A stretch of DNA of 64,000 bases from Gemmatimonadaceae bacterium (lineage in GTDB: Bacteria; Gemmatimonadota; Gemmatimonadetes; Gemmatimonadales; Gemmatimonadaceae). Under the pieces are notes generated by a model. That model did no database searches. It saw only the letters and a list, made by a program, of their open reading frames with translations, and was not told the origin of the DNA. Below are positions 10,409 to 18,162 of this stretch, one piece after another. The stretch is from positions 1 to 64,000 of the forward strand of contig JACVCD010000003.1 of NCBI GenBank assembly GCA_016742275.1. The letters are read 5' to 3'. A program made the position numbers and the translations under genes. Each line of letters starts with the position of its first letter. The first letter of the stretch is position 1.

Positions 10409-10927
10409 ATGTCATTGTCTTTTCTTCGTCGTTCACCGGAGCTGGTTGTCGGTGCCAGTGTGATCGCCCTGTTGTTGTCAGGCCGTCCAGCACAGGCCCA
10501 GACGGCCGCCAACGCGTCCGTCACGGCTACCGTGGCACAGCCGTTGGCGGTGCACGCCACGGCGCCTCTGGCCTTCGGTACCGTGGTGCCTGGCACCAAC
10601 AAGACCGTGGCGGTCAGTGATGCCGCGGCGGCTGCCTTCACGATCACGGGCAACGCACTCGGTGTCGTGAGCATCTCGTTCACGCTGCCCAGCACGATCG
10701 CGAGCGGTGGCAACACCATGCCGTTGGCCAACTGGACCGGTCGCCGCAACACCACGAACAACGCGGGTGCCGGTACCGACTTCACGCCCAGTGCGAGTGC
10801 GGTGCAGGGTTCGCTGAGTGCCTCTGGTGAACTCTATGTGTTCGTCGGCGCGACCGCGCAGCCTGGTGCCTCACAGGCGGCCGGTAGCTACAGCGGTACG
10901 ATCACCATGACCGTGGTGTACTTCTGA
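10409..10927 (+). CDS. DUF4402 pilin-like subunit (first)
   Basis: A 172-residue secreted protein with a signal peptide ending in RPAQAQ. The mature domain is beta-rich and of the DUF4402 kind: PLAFGTVVPG near the start, a GELYVFVGATAQP segment, and the terminal GSYSGTITMTVVYF strand. DUF4402 proteins are pilin-like and often sit beside periplasmic chaperones. The start at 10409 follows AGGGAG and is a better signal-peptide start than an in-frame ATG 22 codons upstream. It is the first gene of a four-gene unit with 1-base, overlapping and 2-base junctions. Probably the major fibre subunit, by inference. Confidence 0.82.
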   Translation: MSLSFLRRSPELVVGASVIALLLSGRPAQAQTAANASVTATVAQPLAVHATAPLAFGTVVPGTNKTVAVSDAAAAAFTITGNALGVVSISFTLPSTIASGGNTMPLANWTGRRNTTNNAGAGTDFTPSASAVQGSLSASGELYVFVGATAQPGASQAAGSYSGTITMTVVYF

Positions 10928-10928
10928 T

Positions 10929-11858
10929 ATGCGCGCCTACCTGAAGACGCGTTCCGCGCCGTTCAGTGTTCGGCGCTGGCAGATGTGGACGATGCGTTTG
11001 CTGACCGTTGTCATGATGGCGTTGCCGTTGGCACTGCCGGTGGCGTCCGTTGGTGCACAGGGTGTGCTGGTCGCGCCGACGGCGCTCGTGCTGACCGAAT
11101 CGCGGCGTTCCGCCACGGTAACACTGGTGAACACCAGCAGCACGGCGAGCGATGTATCGATCGCATTGGCCTTTGGCTATCCCGAAACGGACAGCCTTGG
11201 CCAGATGCGCCTCGTGCTTCAGGATGCGCCGGCTGACAGCATGCCGTCCGCGGTGCCGTTGCTCTCAGTGTATCCGTCACGTGTACTGCTGCCCCCTGGT
11301 GCTACGCGTGTGGTGCGTCTGGTTGCAACGGCACCGCTTCCTACCGCGCATGAACACTGGGCGCGTTTGGTCGTGACCAGTCGGGCTGCTGCGGGTACTG
11401 CGGCGTCGACCGCTGGCGCCAATGGCACCGATTCGACGCAGGCTTCGCTCGATCCGTCGCCCGAAGTGGCGCTGTCGCTCGAAGTGCGCTCCATCCTCGG
11501 TGTGTTCTACCGTCCGTCGCAAGCCACGACGTCCCTGGTGGCGTCGGCACCGGAAACGAAGTTGCACGAAGGCAAGTTGAATGCGCGTCTCACGCTCAAG
11601 CGCGAAGGAAGTGCGGCGTACGTGGGAACACTGCGTGCCGTGCTGCGTGACAGTCTCGGTGTTGCCCGTGGCGAAGCGCAGGTACCGCTTGGTGTGTATT
11701 ACGAACTGTCGCCCTCCGTGTCGTTCGATATGGCACGGTTGCCGCAGGGCAAGTATGCCGTAGAGTGGCGTGCCACAACGGATCGTGCCGATGTGCCCAG
11801 TACGTTGCTCACCCCGGGTGCCGTGGTTCAGGCATCAACGGATGTGCGCGTGCCGTGA
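10929..11858 (+). CDS. PapD-like periplasmic pilus chaperone
   Basis: A 309-residue protein with a signal peptide (ALPVASVGAQ) followed by an Ig-like domain starting GVLVAPTALVLTESRRSATVTLVN, the usual pattern of pilus chaperone domain 1, including VYPSRVLLPPGATRVVRLV for the G1-type edge region. The second half (about 190-305) is another beta domain. It is longer than classical chaperones (about 230 residues) owing to an Ala/Thr/Ser-rich insert near residue 155. Its function would be to cap DUF4402 subunits in the periplasm and hand them to the usher. It starts 1 base after the first subunit gene and overlaps the next by 1 base. Confidence 0.82.
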   Translation: MRAYLKTRSAPFSVRRWQMWTMRLLTVVMMALPLALPVASVGAQGVLVAPTALVLTESRRSATVTLVNTSSTASDVSIALAFGYPETDSLGQMRLVLQDAPADSMPSAVPLLSVYPSRVLLPPGATRVVRLVATAPLPTAHEHWARLVVTSRAAAGTAASTAGANGTDSTQASLDPSPEVALSLEVRSILGVFYRPSQATTSLVASAPETKLHEGKLNARLTLKREGSAAYVGTLRAVLRDSLGVARGEAQVPLGVYYELSPSVSFDMARLPQGKYAVEWRATTDRADVPSTLLTPGAVVQASTDVRVP

Positions 11859-12409
11859 TGAAGACGCGCCGAGTCGTGGTGATGCCAGTGCACGAGATCG
11901 TGCGTGGTTTTGCGCGTGATTTCGTCCGTGCGTGCAAGCGGACGGTGCTCCTCATCGGAGTACTGTTCGCTGGCACGCATGGCACTGCGCACACGGCAGC
12001 CGCACAGACCACCGTGACAACATTGCGCGGACTGGCGTTCGGCAGTGTCACGAGTGGTGTGTCAAAAGCCATTGCTGCCAACTCGGCCAACTCGCTGTCC
12101 TTTCGTATCTCCGGCGTGCTCGGCGTAGGTGGAGGGTTCAGTTTTACATTGCCGACGTCGCTGCCACGTGTTGGTGGCGGCGCATCATTGCCAGTCACAT
12201 TCTGTACGACTTGCGGCATCTACCGGCTTGGTACCAACTCACCAACCGGCGGGATCGTGTTCAACCCCAATAATGGCGTGCTGGGGCTTACTGTGCTTGT
12301 GAACAGTGACATTTACGTATGGCTCGGTGCCACCGCCAATCCGCCGCTCAATCAGGCGGGCGGAACGTATTCCGGCACCGTCACCATCAACGTTTTCGCC
12401 ATTCTGTAG
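11858..12409 (+). CDS. DUF4402 pilin-like subunit (second, with CxxC)
   Basis: A 183-residue secreted protein whose ATG overlaps the chaperone stop (TGATG), so it is translationally coupled. A long n-region is followed by a signal peptide ending in AHTAAAQ. The mature part shares DUF4402 landmarks with the first subunit: LRGLAFGSVTSGVSK, a SDIYVWLGATANPP segment and a C-terminal GGTYSGTVTINVFAIL strand. Unlike the first, it has a CxxC motif (VTFCTTCGIYRLG). It may be a tip or minor subunit; this assignment is inference from position and divergence. Confidence 0.78.
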   Translation: MKTRRVVVMPVHEIVRGFARDFVRACKRTVLLIGVLFAGTHGTAHTAAAQTTVTTLRGLAFGSVTSGVSKAIAANSANSLSFRISGVLGVGGGFSFTLPTSLPRVGGGASLPVTFCTTCGIYRLGTNSPTGGIVFNPNNGVLGLTVLVNSDIYVWLGATANPPLNQAGGTYSGTVTINVFAIL

Positions 12410-12411
12410 TC

Positions 12412-15153
12412 ATGCGCATGCATGCACGATGGCTTCTGCTGTTGGTGGTGTTGGTGATGCCATGGCAGCTCAGTGCGCAACCGCTTATGGGTCTTGGCGG
12501 AGCTACAGCTGTTATGGCGAAGGGTGGAGCGGTGCCGCCAATTGGCGACCCCATGCAGTTGCGTTTTGAAGTACAGATCCTCGAAGCCAGCTATGGACTC
12601 GTGCCGGCACTGCACATCACGGGCAAGACTGGTGAAGCCGTGCTGCTGGATGTGGCTGCGTTGGCGTCCCGGCTGGGGTTTGACCCCAATCGTATTCGCA
12701 CCTGGTGTGCAACCCTTACGTACACCGCCATTGCACCGGAGCAGCCGGTGGAGTGGCCGTGTCACGCAACGCTCGAACGAGCGATGGTACAGCTCGGGCT
12801 CAAGTTGGAAGTGGACCTGGCGAATGCTGCATTGATTGTGCGTACGGCAGAGACGGTTCCGATCATTCGTCGGCAGCGCATGCGCCGCGCAGCTGTTGCC
12901 ACGCTCGCATCGCGCGATGGTATGTCCGAAGCGGCCGACACGGGTACCCGCGAACGACTGGCTCCGGTGCGTAGCGCGCCGAACCGCACGCCATCTGCAG
13001 CAGTCGATCTGCGTCCTTCCACGCAGTTCGACTATCTCCTGAGTGCTCAGCGCCAGGAGGGTGGTTTCGTCAACGAGCAGACTGGTGATGTTTCCGCAGC
13101 GTGGAGTCAGTTCGGAACTGCGCACGTGAGTCGCGGGATCCTGGGTGGCGCACTCGAAGTCGATTTGTCTGGCGGCAGCGGAACAGGTATCGCAAGCCGC
13201 TGGCAGTGGACGCGCCGAGATGCGACACCTACCGGTCGTCGACTGATTCAGCTGGGTGCGTTGCCGACGAGTGGCCCCAATATGGGTGAAGTATGGGGTG
13301 TAGGATTTGGCAATCCGGTCGGTGAGCTTTTTCATACGCGTGATGTGGTGGTGACGCACCGTGCGCGTCCGGATTGGGAGTACTTCGCACTGGTTGGGGA
13401 TGGCGTGCTTTCTTCCGCACGTGGAGCAGACGGTCGTGTCTCGTTCCGTGTGCCGCTCACTGGTGACGTCTCGCCGTATGAGTTGATCGCCATTGGCAAG
13501 GACGGGCGTGAAGTGCGTCAGCCGCGGCTGGTGCAGGGCATGGCCGAGTCCATGGGCCCAGGGGCTGTGCGCCACTCCACGACACTCGGACGTTGCCGCA
13601 ATCCTGGTCGCGCGCTGTTGATGCTGTCGACTTCTTCGTCGACCGACTGCATGTGGCGTGGTACGACCGACTGGTTGTTCGGCGTATCGCACTCGGCGCA
13701 ATTACGTACAGGTGTCGACATTGTCGACGGACGATGGATGCCGTTTGCCGGTGTACGCAGTGCGCCTGCGCCGTCGTGGCGCATGGAGGCCATGGTGTTT
13801 CGTCCGGCGCCATCGGCCGCGCTCAACATGGAGGCCGGCGGAAGTGTCGGATCGGTTGGGAGCATGATGCGTCAGACCACAGCCGTGCACACGGACGCGA
13901 TCGGATCAAGCGCCAGTCTGACGTGGAATCCGTCGCCGACCCAATTGGCGAGCGCCTCATGGCAGCGCGCCTTGCCGATGCAGACGCGCACACTGCAGCT
14001 GGTGCAGGCGCTGCCCGGGCTTGCTCGCCCCATCCAGTTGGGCGCGTGGTGGAACGAGTCCGTACAGCCAACGCTGGTGCTCAAGACCGGGCGACTCAGC
14101 GCGTCCATTCAGCGTGGAACGTCACGCTTTGAAGGCTTCTGGCAGCAGCTGTCGGCATCGTCGACGATTGGCGCGACGGGACCTGGTGATCGCACCATTG
14201 GTGTAACCGGACACGTAGTTCCTGCATGGATGCAATCCACACGCAATCCCTGGTGGGTTCGTGCCTCGGTGGCGCGCACGTTGGCGACATCGGCCTGGCA
14301 GCACGATGTGCGCCTCAACATGGTGGCGGCACGCGCGGACATCGAGCTGGCGCAAACGAGTGGTCCTGCAGGAATGCGATGGAGTGTGCTGGTGGCGCCA
14401 CGTCTCTCGCAGTTGCGATTGACGAGCAGCGCGAATGGTGGTTTGCCGGGAGGCGCTGGCCGTTCAGGGCAGTCCTCACCCCTCGGCAGCGTACAGGCAT
14501 GGACTGCTACTGGGAGCGTCGGGTTCGATGATCGCGCGGGTCGCGTGCGCATGAGTGCGGATCGGCAGGCCGACCGTGCCACGCTCGAGGCGGTGGTCTT
14601 CCTGGATCGGAACGCCAATGGAGTTCATGACCACGATGAGTCCATGATTCCCGATGTCATGGTGCTGGCCGGCAACAGTCGGGCGGCCACGGATGCCCGT
14701 GGTCGTGCAATCCTCAATGGACTGACAAGCCGCGAACCTGTGGCCATTGCAGTGGATCCGATCACGTTGGAGCAACCATGCTGGCTACCAGCAGCAGCGC
14801 GTCAGCGTGCACAGCTGACCGCCGCACATGTGGCTGTTGTGCCGATCCCTTTGAGAGAAGGCGTGCTTGTGGAGGGACGAGTCGTGAAATCGAATGCGGA
14901 CTCGTCTGTTCGTGCATTGCCGTCGGTGCTTACGCTGACAGATGCGATGGGCACACGCACATCCGTTGATCTCTTCGCTGATGGATGGTTCAGCACGCCA
15001 CCGTTACTCCCTGGGCGGTGGAGTGTGAGTCTTCAGGATGGGGACAACACGTTACGCGGCGTGATCATTGTCACTGAGAATCGCGATAACACTGATCGTA
15101 CCGCTCGCGATGCCGGATGCCGAACACAGCATGAGACACTGATCGTGCACTGA
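12412..15153 (+). CDS. Divergent outer-membrane usher of a chaperone-usher pathway
   Basis: A 913-residue protein with signal peptide (VLVMPWQLSAQ), 2 bases after the second subunit. An N-terminal domain (about 30-150) contains PALHITGKTGEAVLLDVAAL-like sequence resembling usher N-domains. A long beta-rich region (about 180-720) includes the usher-like element RPDWEYFALVGDGVL with GRVSFRVPL and YELIAIGKDGREVRQ (about 320-370), comparable to the ELYRNG and YGPxGQ elements of known ushers. From about 727 comes VVFLDRNANGVHDHDES with TDARGRAILNGL, the SdrD_B-like C-terminal module of alternative ushers. It would form the secretion pore for DUF4402 fibres. No close assignment to a named usher clade can be made by eye. 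Confidence 0.72.
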   Translation: MRMHARWLLLLVVLVMPWQLSAQPLMGLGGATAVMAKGGAVPPIGDPMQLRFEVQILEASYGLVPALHITGKTGEAVLLDVAALASRLGFDPNRIRTWCATLTYTAIAPEQPVEWPCHATLERAMVQLGLKLEVDLANAALIVRTAETVPIIRRQRMRRAAVATLASRDGMSEAADTGTRERLAPVRSAPNRTPSAAVDLRPSTQFDYLLSAQRQEGGFVNEQTGDVSAAWSQFGTAHVSRGILGGALEVDLSGGSGTGIASRWQWTRRDATPTGRRLIQLGALPTSGPNMGEVWGVGFGNPVGELFHTRDVVVTHRARPDWEYFALVGDGVLSSARGADGRVSFRVPLTGDVSPYELIAIGKDGREVRQPRLVQGMAESMGPGAVRHSTTLGRCRNPGRALLMLSTSSSTDCMWRGTTDWLFGVSHSAQLRTGVDIVDGRWMPFAGVRSAPAPSWRMEAMVFRPAPSAALNMEAGGSVGSVGSMMRQTTAVHTDAIGSSASLTWNPSPTQLASASWQRALPMQTRTLQLVQALPGLARPIQLGAWWNESVQPTLVLKTGRLSASIQRGTSRFEGFWQQLSASSTIGATGPGDRTIGVTGHVVPAWMQSTRNPWWVRASVARTLATSAWQHDVRLNMVAARADIELAQTSGPAGMRWSVLVAPRLSQLRLTSSANGGLPGGAGRSGQSSPLGSVQAWTATGSVGFDDRAGRVRMSADRQADRATLEAVVFLDRNANGVHDHDESMIPDVMVLAGNSRAATDARGRAILNGLTSREPVAIAVDPITLEQPCWLPAAARQRAQLTAAHVAVVPIPLREGVLVEGRVVKSNADSSVRALPSVLTLTDAMGTRTSVDLFADGWFSTPPLLPGRWSVSLQDGDNTLRGVIIVTENRDNTDRTARDAGCRTQHETLIVH

Positions 15154-15250: not shown

Positions 15251-17476
15251 ATGCAATCGGATGTCGGCAACATGACAGAAGCACAGTTGCTGAATCGTCA
15301 GCAGGTTCGGCGATTGTACCGTGCCGCGTTATTTGCGGTGCTTTTCATCGCGTTCATTGCCGCGGCAGGTGGTATAGGGCTCGAGGCGTCTGCACGATGG
15401 GTGCAGCACACCCGTGAGGTCCTGCGCACCGTGCGCGAATTGCAAGCAGCGCTCCTGTCATCGGAGTCGCAGGCACTGCTCGCTGTGTCTTCGGCACGGC
15501 CACTGGCCGCGCCTCGCGACGTAACAGCACCGCCCCCGTCTCTCGACACGGGAGCGACCACACCACTGCTGGATCGTCTTACCACGCTCACGCGCGACAA
15601 CTCCTTGCAGCAGGCCCGTGCCCAGCGACTGACCGAAGCCGTTGCCGCGTGGGAAGACGAGCTGATTGCCGTGACCACTGGCCGTGTGACCACGCCGTCC
15701 ATCACCGTCAACGTGGGTTTGCGGGCTGCGCTCGACGAATTCCAGGCCGAAGAGTCCGAGCTGTACTCGTCGCGCATTGCGCGTCAGCAGCAGTGGCGTG
15801 CGGCACTGATCATCGCCCTGCTGTTCTCGCTTACGCTGGTCGCGTTCGCGCTGCGCTACGTGATGCGTGGAGCGCTGGGTGAGGCGCGGCGTCGTATTGC
15901 GTCCGAGGCGGAGCGTGATCGAGCGAGCCGACTGTTGGAGTTTGCTCTTGAAAGTTCCCCGCTTGCCGTCGGCGTCGTGAATACTGACGGGGCGCTCGTG
16001 CTTGAAAACGATACCTGGCGTCGCTTGAGTGAGCAGGCGGAGGCACCAATCCTGCCGCTTCTGCAGCCGCAGATTGATGCCGTGCGCGCGTCGGGCAATC
16101 CGCAGGTTGCTGAACTGACCGTGCATGCGTTAGTCGACGGCAAGCGGGCGCCGGATGGCCCCATTGCAGATGAGGGGAAATCTGTCCGCACGCTTGCCGT
16201 CAGCGCATATGCGGTAGGTAAGGCGCAGCCATTACAGGTCGGTCTGGTGCTCTTTGATCTCACCGATCAGCGATGGCTCGAAACACAGTTGCGTCATGCG
16301 CAGCGCATGGAGGCGCTCGGTCGACTGGCTGGTGGTGTTGCCCACGATATCAACAATGTGCTGACTGCCATCATCGGGTTCACCGAAATGGCGATCATGG
16401 GAGCCCAGCGCGGCGCGACCAGCGGCAACACGCAGTTGCAGATGGATTTGCAGCAGGTACGTCGTGCTGCGGACCGCGCGGCCATGATGGCCAGGCAGTT
16501 GCTCACATTCAGCCGACAGAATGTTCTGCGCGTTCGCGCGATCAATCCGGCCGATGTGTTGCTGGATCTGGAGCCGATGCTGCGGCGGATCATGGGGTCG
16601 CATGTACAGTTCGCCGTACGCGCATCATCCGACACCTGGTCGATCCTGGCCGATCCTGGGCAGATCGAGCAGGTGGTGCTGAATCTTGCCATCAATGCGC
16701 GCGACGCGATGGACACCGGTGGCGAGCTCACGGTGGAGCTCAGCAATATCCCTGCGCGCGATGTGCTGCGTCAGTCGGGATCACCGGCCTGGCCCGGAGA
16801 TCGGCCACCCGTGGATTGCGTGCGCATTACTGTGGTTGATACCGGTGGCGGTATCCCGGAGTCGGTGCGCGCGCGCATCTTCGATCCGTTCTTTACCACC
16901 AAGGCGGCTGGAAAGGGTACAGGTCTCGGGCTCGCGACCGTTCGTCAGATCGTTTCTGATCTCAACGGCCACATCGCCTTGCTCAGTGAGATCGGACAGG
17001 GAACCACGTTCTCGGTCATGTTGCCTCGTGTCGCCGCAGCGCCGGAACCGGTTCGGCCTGTTGCCGCGGATCCGGTTCAACAGATCCGGCGCGGTTCAGT
17101 ACTCGTGGCCGAGGATGACCGTGATGTCCGGTTCCTCACGGAGTACGTGCTTGGCGAGGCCGGCTTCACCGTGCACACGGTGCGCAACGGCCGCGACGCC
17201 ATCAATGCCATCGAACGCAGTCCTGTACCGTTCGATATACTGATCACCGATCTCGTCATGCCGGACATTGGCGGCATTGCGCTTGGAGAACATCCGACCG
17301 TCAAGTCACGCGGGATCGTCGTGATGTACATGTCCGGATATCCGGCGGACACGTACGGTCAGCAAACCACTGTTCCCGCGGACGCGCATTTTCTGGCGAA
17401 GCCGTTCACGCCTTCCGCGCTGCTTGAGGCGATGGCCGAAGTGCTTTCGAAGAACGGTTCCGATCACTCGGTTTGA
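15251..17476 (+). CDS. CHASE3-type hybrid sensor histidine kinase
   Basis: A 741-residue membrane protein. TM1 is at about 22-45, a CHASE3-like extracytoplasmic domain follows ([19 protein letters not shown]), TM2 lies near 180-203, then a PAS-like segment. The HisKA H-box is [13 protein letters not shown] with His365; N-box [12 protein letters not shown]1 [10 protein letters not shown]-box FDPFFTTK and G2 [11 protein letters not shown] are intact. The C-terminal receiver carries the acidic pair AEDDRDV and Asp667. ATG follows GGAGAA. It lies 97 bases after the usher gene on the same strand; regulation of the pilus operon is plausible but unproven. Confidence 0.92.
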
Positions 17477-18162
17477 GTACTGACCCTCAACTGGATTCCG
17501 ACGTCGCGCAGGCTGTGTACTGACACCAGTAGACTTGCCTGAACGAGCTTTTGTCTGAGACGGGTAAGTGTCACATCGAGCACGCTGGTGTGTGGATCAA
17601 AATCGTATCCCCACACCAGCGAAAGCAGCTCGGCTCGCGGGACCAGCTTGTCTGGATGTCCGGCGAGCGTGGTGAGCACCTGCCACTCCTTCGGAGTCAG
17701 CGCAACACTGCCAACAGGGCCAGTAATGTTTCGGGCGATTGGATCGCAGGTCAGATCGCCAATGGTGGTGGGCGTGCTGGCGCGTGATGCAGGAGTGAGG
17801 CGCCTTCGCAGTGCGGTGAGTCGCGCCTTGAGTACGGCAGGCGATACCGGCTTTACCACATAGTCATCTGCTCCAGCTTCCAGTGCCTGTACGATGCGAT
17901 CGTCGCTCTCATGTGCAGAGAAGACGAGAATGCCCGCATCAGGATGGCGCGCACGAAGATCCGGCAGGATGTCGACTCCAGAGCCATCAGGAAGTGTGAG
18001 GTCCACGATGATCGTGGCAAACGGCTCGCTGCCAAGCACCGCACGCGCATCGCGAATTGAACTAGCGACGCAAATTTCCTCGTCCGATGGATCCAGGAGT
18101 CGGCGAAACCAGGCGATCACATCCTGGTTGTCTTCAATGAGCAACAGAGGCAGAACGGGCAT
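17464..18162 (-). CDS. OmpR/PhoB-family response regulator
   Basis: A 232-residue two-domain regulator. The receiver (1-120) has the acidic pair IEDNQDV, phospho-acceptor Asp54 (IIVDLTLPDG), switch residue Ser82 and Lys104 (YVVKP). The winged-helix effector (about 140-228) shows ALTPKEWQVLTTLAGHP and VLDVTLTRLRQKL, typical of OmpR/PhoB DNA binding. Its 3' end overlaps the 3' end of the hybrid kinase gene by 13 bases on the opposite strand. The convergent overlap makes the kinase the natural candidate partner, by inference only. Confidence 0.92.
   Translation of the reverse strand: MPVLPLLLIEDNQDVIAWFRRLLDPSDEEICVASSIRDARAVLGSEPFATIIVDLTLPDGSGVDILPDLRARHPDAGILVFSAHESDDRIVQALEAGADDYVVKPVSPAVLKARLTALRRRLTPASRASTPTTIGDLTCDPIARNITGPVGSVALTPKEWQVLTTLAGHPDKLVPRAELLSLVWGYDFDPHTSVLDVTLTRLRQKLVQASLLVSVHSLRDVGIQLRVSTQTE

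Follow-up and report, generated by a model that had tools for sequence, protein, structure and literature searches.

Gene content of the operon and its neighbours

The window, by which we mean the whole 64,000-nucleotide stretch of Gemmatimonadaceae DNA analysed here, carries four forward-strand genes that follow one another almost without interruption. These encode subunit A, a DUF4402 pilin (10409-10927, 172 aa), a PapD-like chaperone of the predicted non-classical type (10929-11858, 309 aa), subunit B, a DUF4402-type pilin without an N-terminal extension (11858-12409, 183 aa), and a putative usher (12412-15153, 913 aa). The gene calls place a 1-base gap between A and the chaperone, a 1-base overlap between the chaperone and B, and a 2-base gap between B and the usher (+1, -1 and +2 bases), confirming the boundaries and compactness of the operon described in a first-pass annotation of the sequence. 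A chance arrangement of open reading frames is ruled out by the occurrence of the identical gene set in dozens of other genomes, and the identification of the four genes as a chaperone-usher operon is well supported. Across the whole genome, the operon provides the sole DUF4402 match and the sole PapD_N match. Half of it escapes the standard family databases, the export pore and the subunits being too divergent; PHROGs gave no matches, and a promoter scan gave no signal above chance.

A hybrid histidine kinase (15251-17476, forward strand; HisKA, HATPase_c and Response_reg domains) begins 97 bases past the usher and is convergent with an OmpR-type response regulator (17464-18162, reverse strand; Response_reg and Trans_reg_C). 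The nearest relative of the operon, in genome G020, has the same four genes in the same order with nearly equal spacing, and carries the kinase and the regulator in the same place, at 42% and 45% identity, although the two genomes have different genes on the upstream side of the operon. In 14 other loci a kinase adjoins the usher, but it is convergent and just 26-35% identical, and 37 loci with room for one have no kinase in reach. A two-component system controls the archaic cupE operon (PMC10104325).

Predicted folds of the usher, chaperone and subunits

Of the family models proposed beforehand for the profile search of the 913-residue protein, PF00577 (Usher) gave no match in Pfam even at E 1, and SdrD_B gave a sub-threshold match at residues 727-753 (E 0.046), the sole Pfam match of the protein. 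A PDB sequence search with the usher profile returned only NOMO2 and SdrD, both through the C-terminal domain. Two of 12 usher relatives touch PF00577, with a best E of 0.0014. We modelled the protein with AlphaFold2 from an alignment restricted to 25 Gemmatimonadota sequences, which kept any FimD signal out of the input. The model, of modest confidence (pLDDT 61, pTM 0.44), has a barrel of about 24 strands (residues 199-706; 13006-14529, forward strand) that aligns to the PapC and FimD pores, a small inserted, plug-like beta domain (residues 323-375; 13378-13536, forward strand) and C-terminal beta domains with an SdrD_B-like motif (residues 722-890; 14575-15081, forward strand). FimD and PapC account for all of its 17 top PDB matches (best E 6e-24), with residues 1-198 barely covered, and VIA gave a Z of 16.6 over 605 residues for an usher against 12.7 for the best porin. 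Independently of the model, profile comparison with hhalign aligned residues 276-435 with the plug region of FimD/YraJ (E 1.8e-4). Lack of a 24-strand barrel had been named beforehand as a refuting outcome, and the roughly 24 predicted strands, together with the FimD and PapC matches, leave the usher assignment standing. Within the limits of this model confidence, the protein is predicted to have the usher fold, a plugged barrel of about 24 strands followed by C-terminal domains. Just past the plug region, both usher alignments show two invariant cysteines, C395 and C413, which could possibly form a disulphide.

The chaperone matches PapD_N (24.4 bits, E 3e-5; Pfam cut-off 23 bits), and its profile matches FimC/YraI/EcpB at E 1.9e-5. 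Classical chaperones (beta, gamma, kappa and pi) anchor the subunit carboxylate through a conserved domain-1 Arg and Lys, whereas the non-classical (archaic/alternative) chaperones have a conserved Arg (Arg89 of CsuC/EcpB) and Pro (59/60) (PMC4654587). In the profile alignment, the classical positions are occupied by A52 and G191. P116 and R146, which are invariant across 11 chaperones, fall on Pro60 and Arg89 of EcpB (numbered without its 20-residue signal peptide) in a profile alignment with an E of only 0.002. A conserved Tyr and Arg are also present in domain 2 (compare Tyr196 and Arg174 of CsuC), but the EcpB alignment stops short of them. By these residues the chaperone is predicted to be of the non-classical (archaic/alternative) type, not the classical one. 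Searched against PDB sequences, the chaperone profile returned chance matches only, and tblastn of the chaperone against plasmids found no match; the same search with subunit A retrieved one Cetobacterium protein, with no adjoining annotated chaperone or usher gene.

Subunit A matches DUF4402 (PF14352) with 38.7 bits (E 1.9e-9), above the Pfam cut-off of 25.2 bits, and subunit B falls under it (12.8 bits, E 0.2). The kinship of B with the DUF4402 subunits is nevertheless secure, since BLASTP pairs it with its homologue in G020 (1.7e-36) and all 45 members of a subunit alignment that includes B touch DUF4402 at E <=1. SCPU (PF05229) has no match in A or B and is touched by six of the 45 aligned subunits (best E 0.073); none of the subunits scanned matches a CS1 or ECP family, and a PDB sequence search with the subunit profile gave no significant match. 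The earlier description of a divergent usher accompanied by two DUF4402-type subunits in a chaperone-usher operon is thus borne out, for B through homology and for the usher through its model.

The monomer model of subunit A has high confidence from about residue 41 onward, and residues 31-46 form no strand in it. Its 22 best Foldseek matches are chaperone-usher pilins; their E-values are individually weak (best 1.3e-3) and the list is consistent. VIA ranked CsuA/B first (Z 9.1) and then CsuE (8.8), both archaic Csu pilins. The model therefore points to an incomplete Ig pilin fold, nearest to that of the archaic Csu pilins. DUF4402 had been proposed as a substitute for the classical pilin fold; the consistent pilin matches of subunit A argue instead that DUF4402 is itself a pilin fold, and this family without known function gains a likely role.

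Distribution and chaperone-usher fusions

Usher matches were found in 15 of 61 genomes searched, the window genome counted, and the neighbours at all these loci are chaperone and DUF4402-type genes. Scanning of GTDB contigs with a single protein found no relative. An alignment query then retrieved 26 loci, whose record titles all name Gemmatimonadetes or a group belonging to Gemmatimonadota; their gene content is the same wherever the contig extends far enough, and a few of them come from genomes already found in the 61-genome search. Of 298 Gemmatimonadota genomes sampled, 57 have a long usher match (E <1e-60), a count from which matches at profile positions ~666-720 were excluded as SdrD_B-like domains. 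Homologous operons are widespread yet patchy in Gemmatimonadota, and standard family models overlook this type of usher, the window protein itself having no family match. The unfused form is present in only G000 and G020 among 30 same-genus genomes.

Three further loci were recorded during these searches. Two of them (L079:3632-6058 in G071 and L085:4289-6610 in G217) hold shorter usher-like open reading frames without the C-terminal part, and the surrounding stretch examined showed neither a chaperone nor a DUF4402 gene. In the third (L105:4607-9562 in G028, a genome of the same genus), a PapD_N protein (443-aa open reading frame) adjoins a 1036-aa open reading frame with NPCBM_assoc and a sub-threshold SdrD_B match, perhaps another chaperone-dependent system.

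In four of the 30 same-genus genomes (G012, G016, G017 and G024) the chaperone and the usher share a single open reading frame, 1145-1275 residues long (L032:4975-8412, L033:2328-5798, L066:3714-7541 and L106:1044-4532). The fused proteins are 44-82% identical to that of G016, and a fusion conserved at such divergence is unlikely to be an assembly artefact. Each has one signal region, at the N-terminus, and the linker shows no further hydrophobic segment. A divergent single-domain DUF4402 protein precedes each fusion and a two-domain DUF4402 protein follows it, in which domain 1 has no extension and an extension-like segment precedes domain 2; G032 (L034) provides the unfused counterpart of this layout. 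No description of a chaperone-usher fusion was found in the mainly open-access literature searched. The most unexpected lead of this analysis comes from the fused relatives. They would also put to the test a basic tenet of the pathway, the need for a chaperone that can freely depart and come back. We tentatively suggest, at slightly below an even chance, that Gemmatimonadota may have their own branch of non-classical machines, with DUF4402 pilins, a bare single-domain tip and one sub-branch in which chaperone and usher are covalently linked, where a single secreted polypeptide would both cap and export the subunits.

At another locus (L047:971-2161) a chaperone open reading frame continues in frame as the C-terminal portion of a subunit, and the junction sequence is missing, which may reflect either a deletion or an artefact of metagenome assembly. 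We considered this fusion as a stand-in for the chaperone-subunit complex and rejected it, the in-frame junction having lost the first strand of the subunit.

Proposed pilus and its alternatives

We measured the N-terminal extension of each subunit as the number of residues from the predicted signal cleavage to the conserved FG motif. Extension lengths are bimodal, clustering at 9-16 and at 24-29 residues, and three subunits lie in between at 19-22. Subunit A of the window belongs to the long group (25 or 27, depending on the cleavage site chosen) and B to the short one (11). Exactly one short and at least one long subunit are present in 26 of the 29 operons with at least two subunits, counts that are not independent because the operons are related; the other three operons each have one intermediate subunit. 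The long extensions are hydrophobic at 75-82% of alternate positions versus 19-32% of those in between. In subunit A, length and alternating hydrophobicity mark residues 31-46, past the predicted signal peptide, as the proposed donor strand (10499-10546, forward strand). The gene for the short subunit lies ahead of the chaperone in some operons and behind it in others, a variation consistent with a functional need for such a subunit. A and B are each single-domain, and the operon has no gene for a two-domain tip adhesin. This anatomy suggests that A is the rod subunit and B a single-domain tip.

We consider it very likely that the product of the operon is a minimal non-classical chaperone-usher pilus, in which B would form the tip and A the rod through donor-strand exchange between subunits, with expression probably controlled by the adjacent kinase and response regulator. 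This model draws on gene content, the folds of A and the usher, the anchor residue, the presence or absence of the extension and synteny, all read from sequence or predicted structure. The chaperone would lend its G1 strand to the incomplete Ig fold of the Sec-exported subunits, capping them, while R146 would anchor the subunit C-terminus. The usher pore would take B first, given that a subunit without an N-terminal extension is only possible as the distal tip, and each copy of A would then fill the groove of the preceding subunit with its extension as the fibre is extruded through the usher barrel. Such a fibre may have a role in adhesion or biofilm formation.

That the 913-residue protein is instead an unrelated outer-membrane barrel or an SdrD_B-like surface adhesin, with the DUF4402 proteins exported otherwise, is most improbable: it would suit a protein with no Pfam usher match and a barrel to which porins too align (Z 11-12.7), but FimD and PapC are clearly top-ranked and span the barrel, the plug and the C-terminal domains, two relatives touch PF00577, and the gene adjoins chaperone and pilin genes in most loci examined. 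Within the same machine, B might be a minor or terminating subunit, with A polymerising in the absence of a dedicated single-domain tip. B does sit after the chaperone, in the slot that an extension-bearing third subunit occupies in other operons, and the tip is two-domain in the archaic systems known to date; we nonetheless judge this arrangement unlikely, as B has no donor strand with which to attach to the subunit ahead, exactly one extension-less subunit recurs in nearly all the operons compared, and the extension-less domain of the fused relatives leads a two-domain protein, like the known two-domain tips.

The chaperone-usher pathway makes coats too, among them the F1 capsule and spore-coat material, and the minimal gene content of the operon would fit export, by the same route, of a thin coat or capsule-like surface layer rather than a long fibre. 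We regard this as clearly unlikely, since almost all the operons have a separate subunit lacking the extension, which suggests a fibre that is linear and has an end, and the nearest folds are pilins of fibres. The assembly of a linear pilus remains our preferred reading, and the earlier suggestion of a surface fibre not yet described is supported as probable. The word DUF4402 is absent from the open-access literature searched, in which we also found no paper treating Gemmatimonas together with chaperone-usher pili.

Among known systems, the archaic pili (Csu of Acinetobacter and CupE of Pseudomonas) share with the window operon the nearest pilin folds, an Arg89-type chaperone anchor without the classical pair and, in cupE, a two-component control (PMC10104325) that the adjoining pair recalls. 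The window subunits, however, are DUF4402 by Pfam and not SCPU, the proposed tip is single-domain whereas the archaic tip adhesin is two-domain, and the usher is unrecognised by PF00577. With the alternative pili (ECP and CFA/I types) the chaperone shares the P116/R146 correspondence, but the profile match is weak and the subunits scanned have no match to the families of these pili. The classical pili (type 1 and P) resemble the window system in overall usher architecture and pilin fold, and differ in having the Arg/Lys carboxylate anchor and a two-domain adhesin. A possible counterpart of the proposed tip B is the Afa/Dr-type tip (AfaD, DraD), one pilin domain without an N-terminal extension, although that type has a classical chaperone and an unrelated subunit family.
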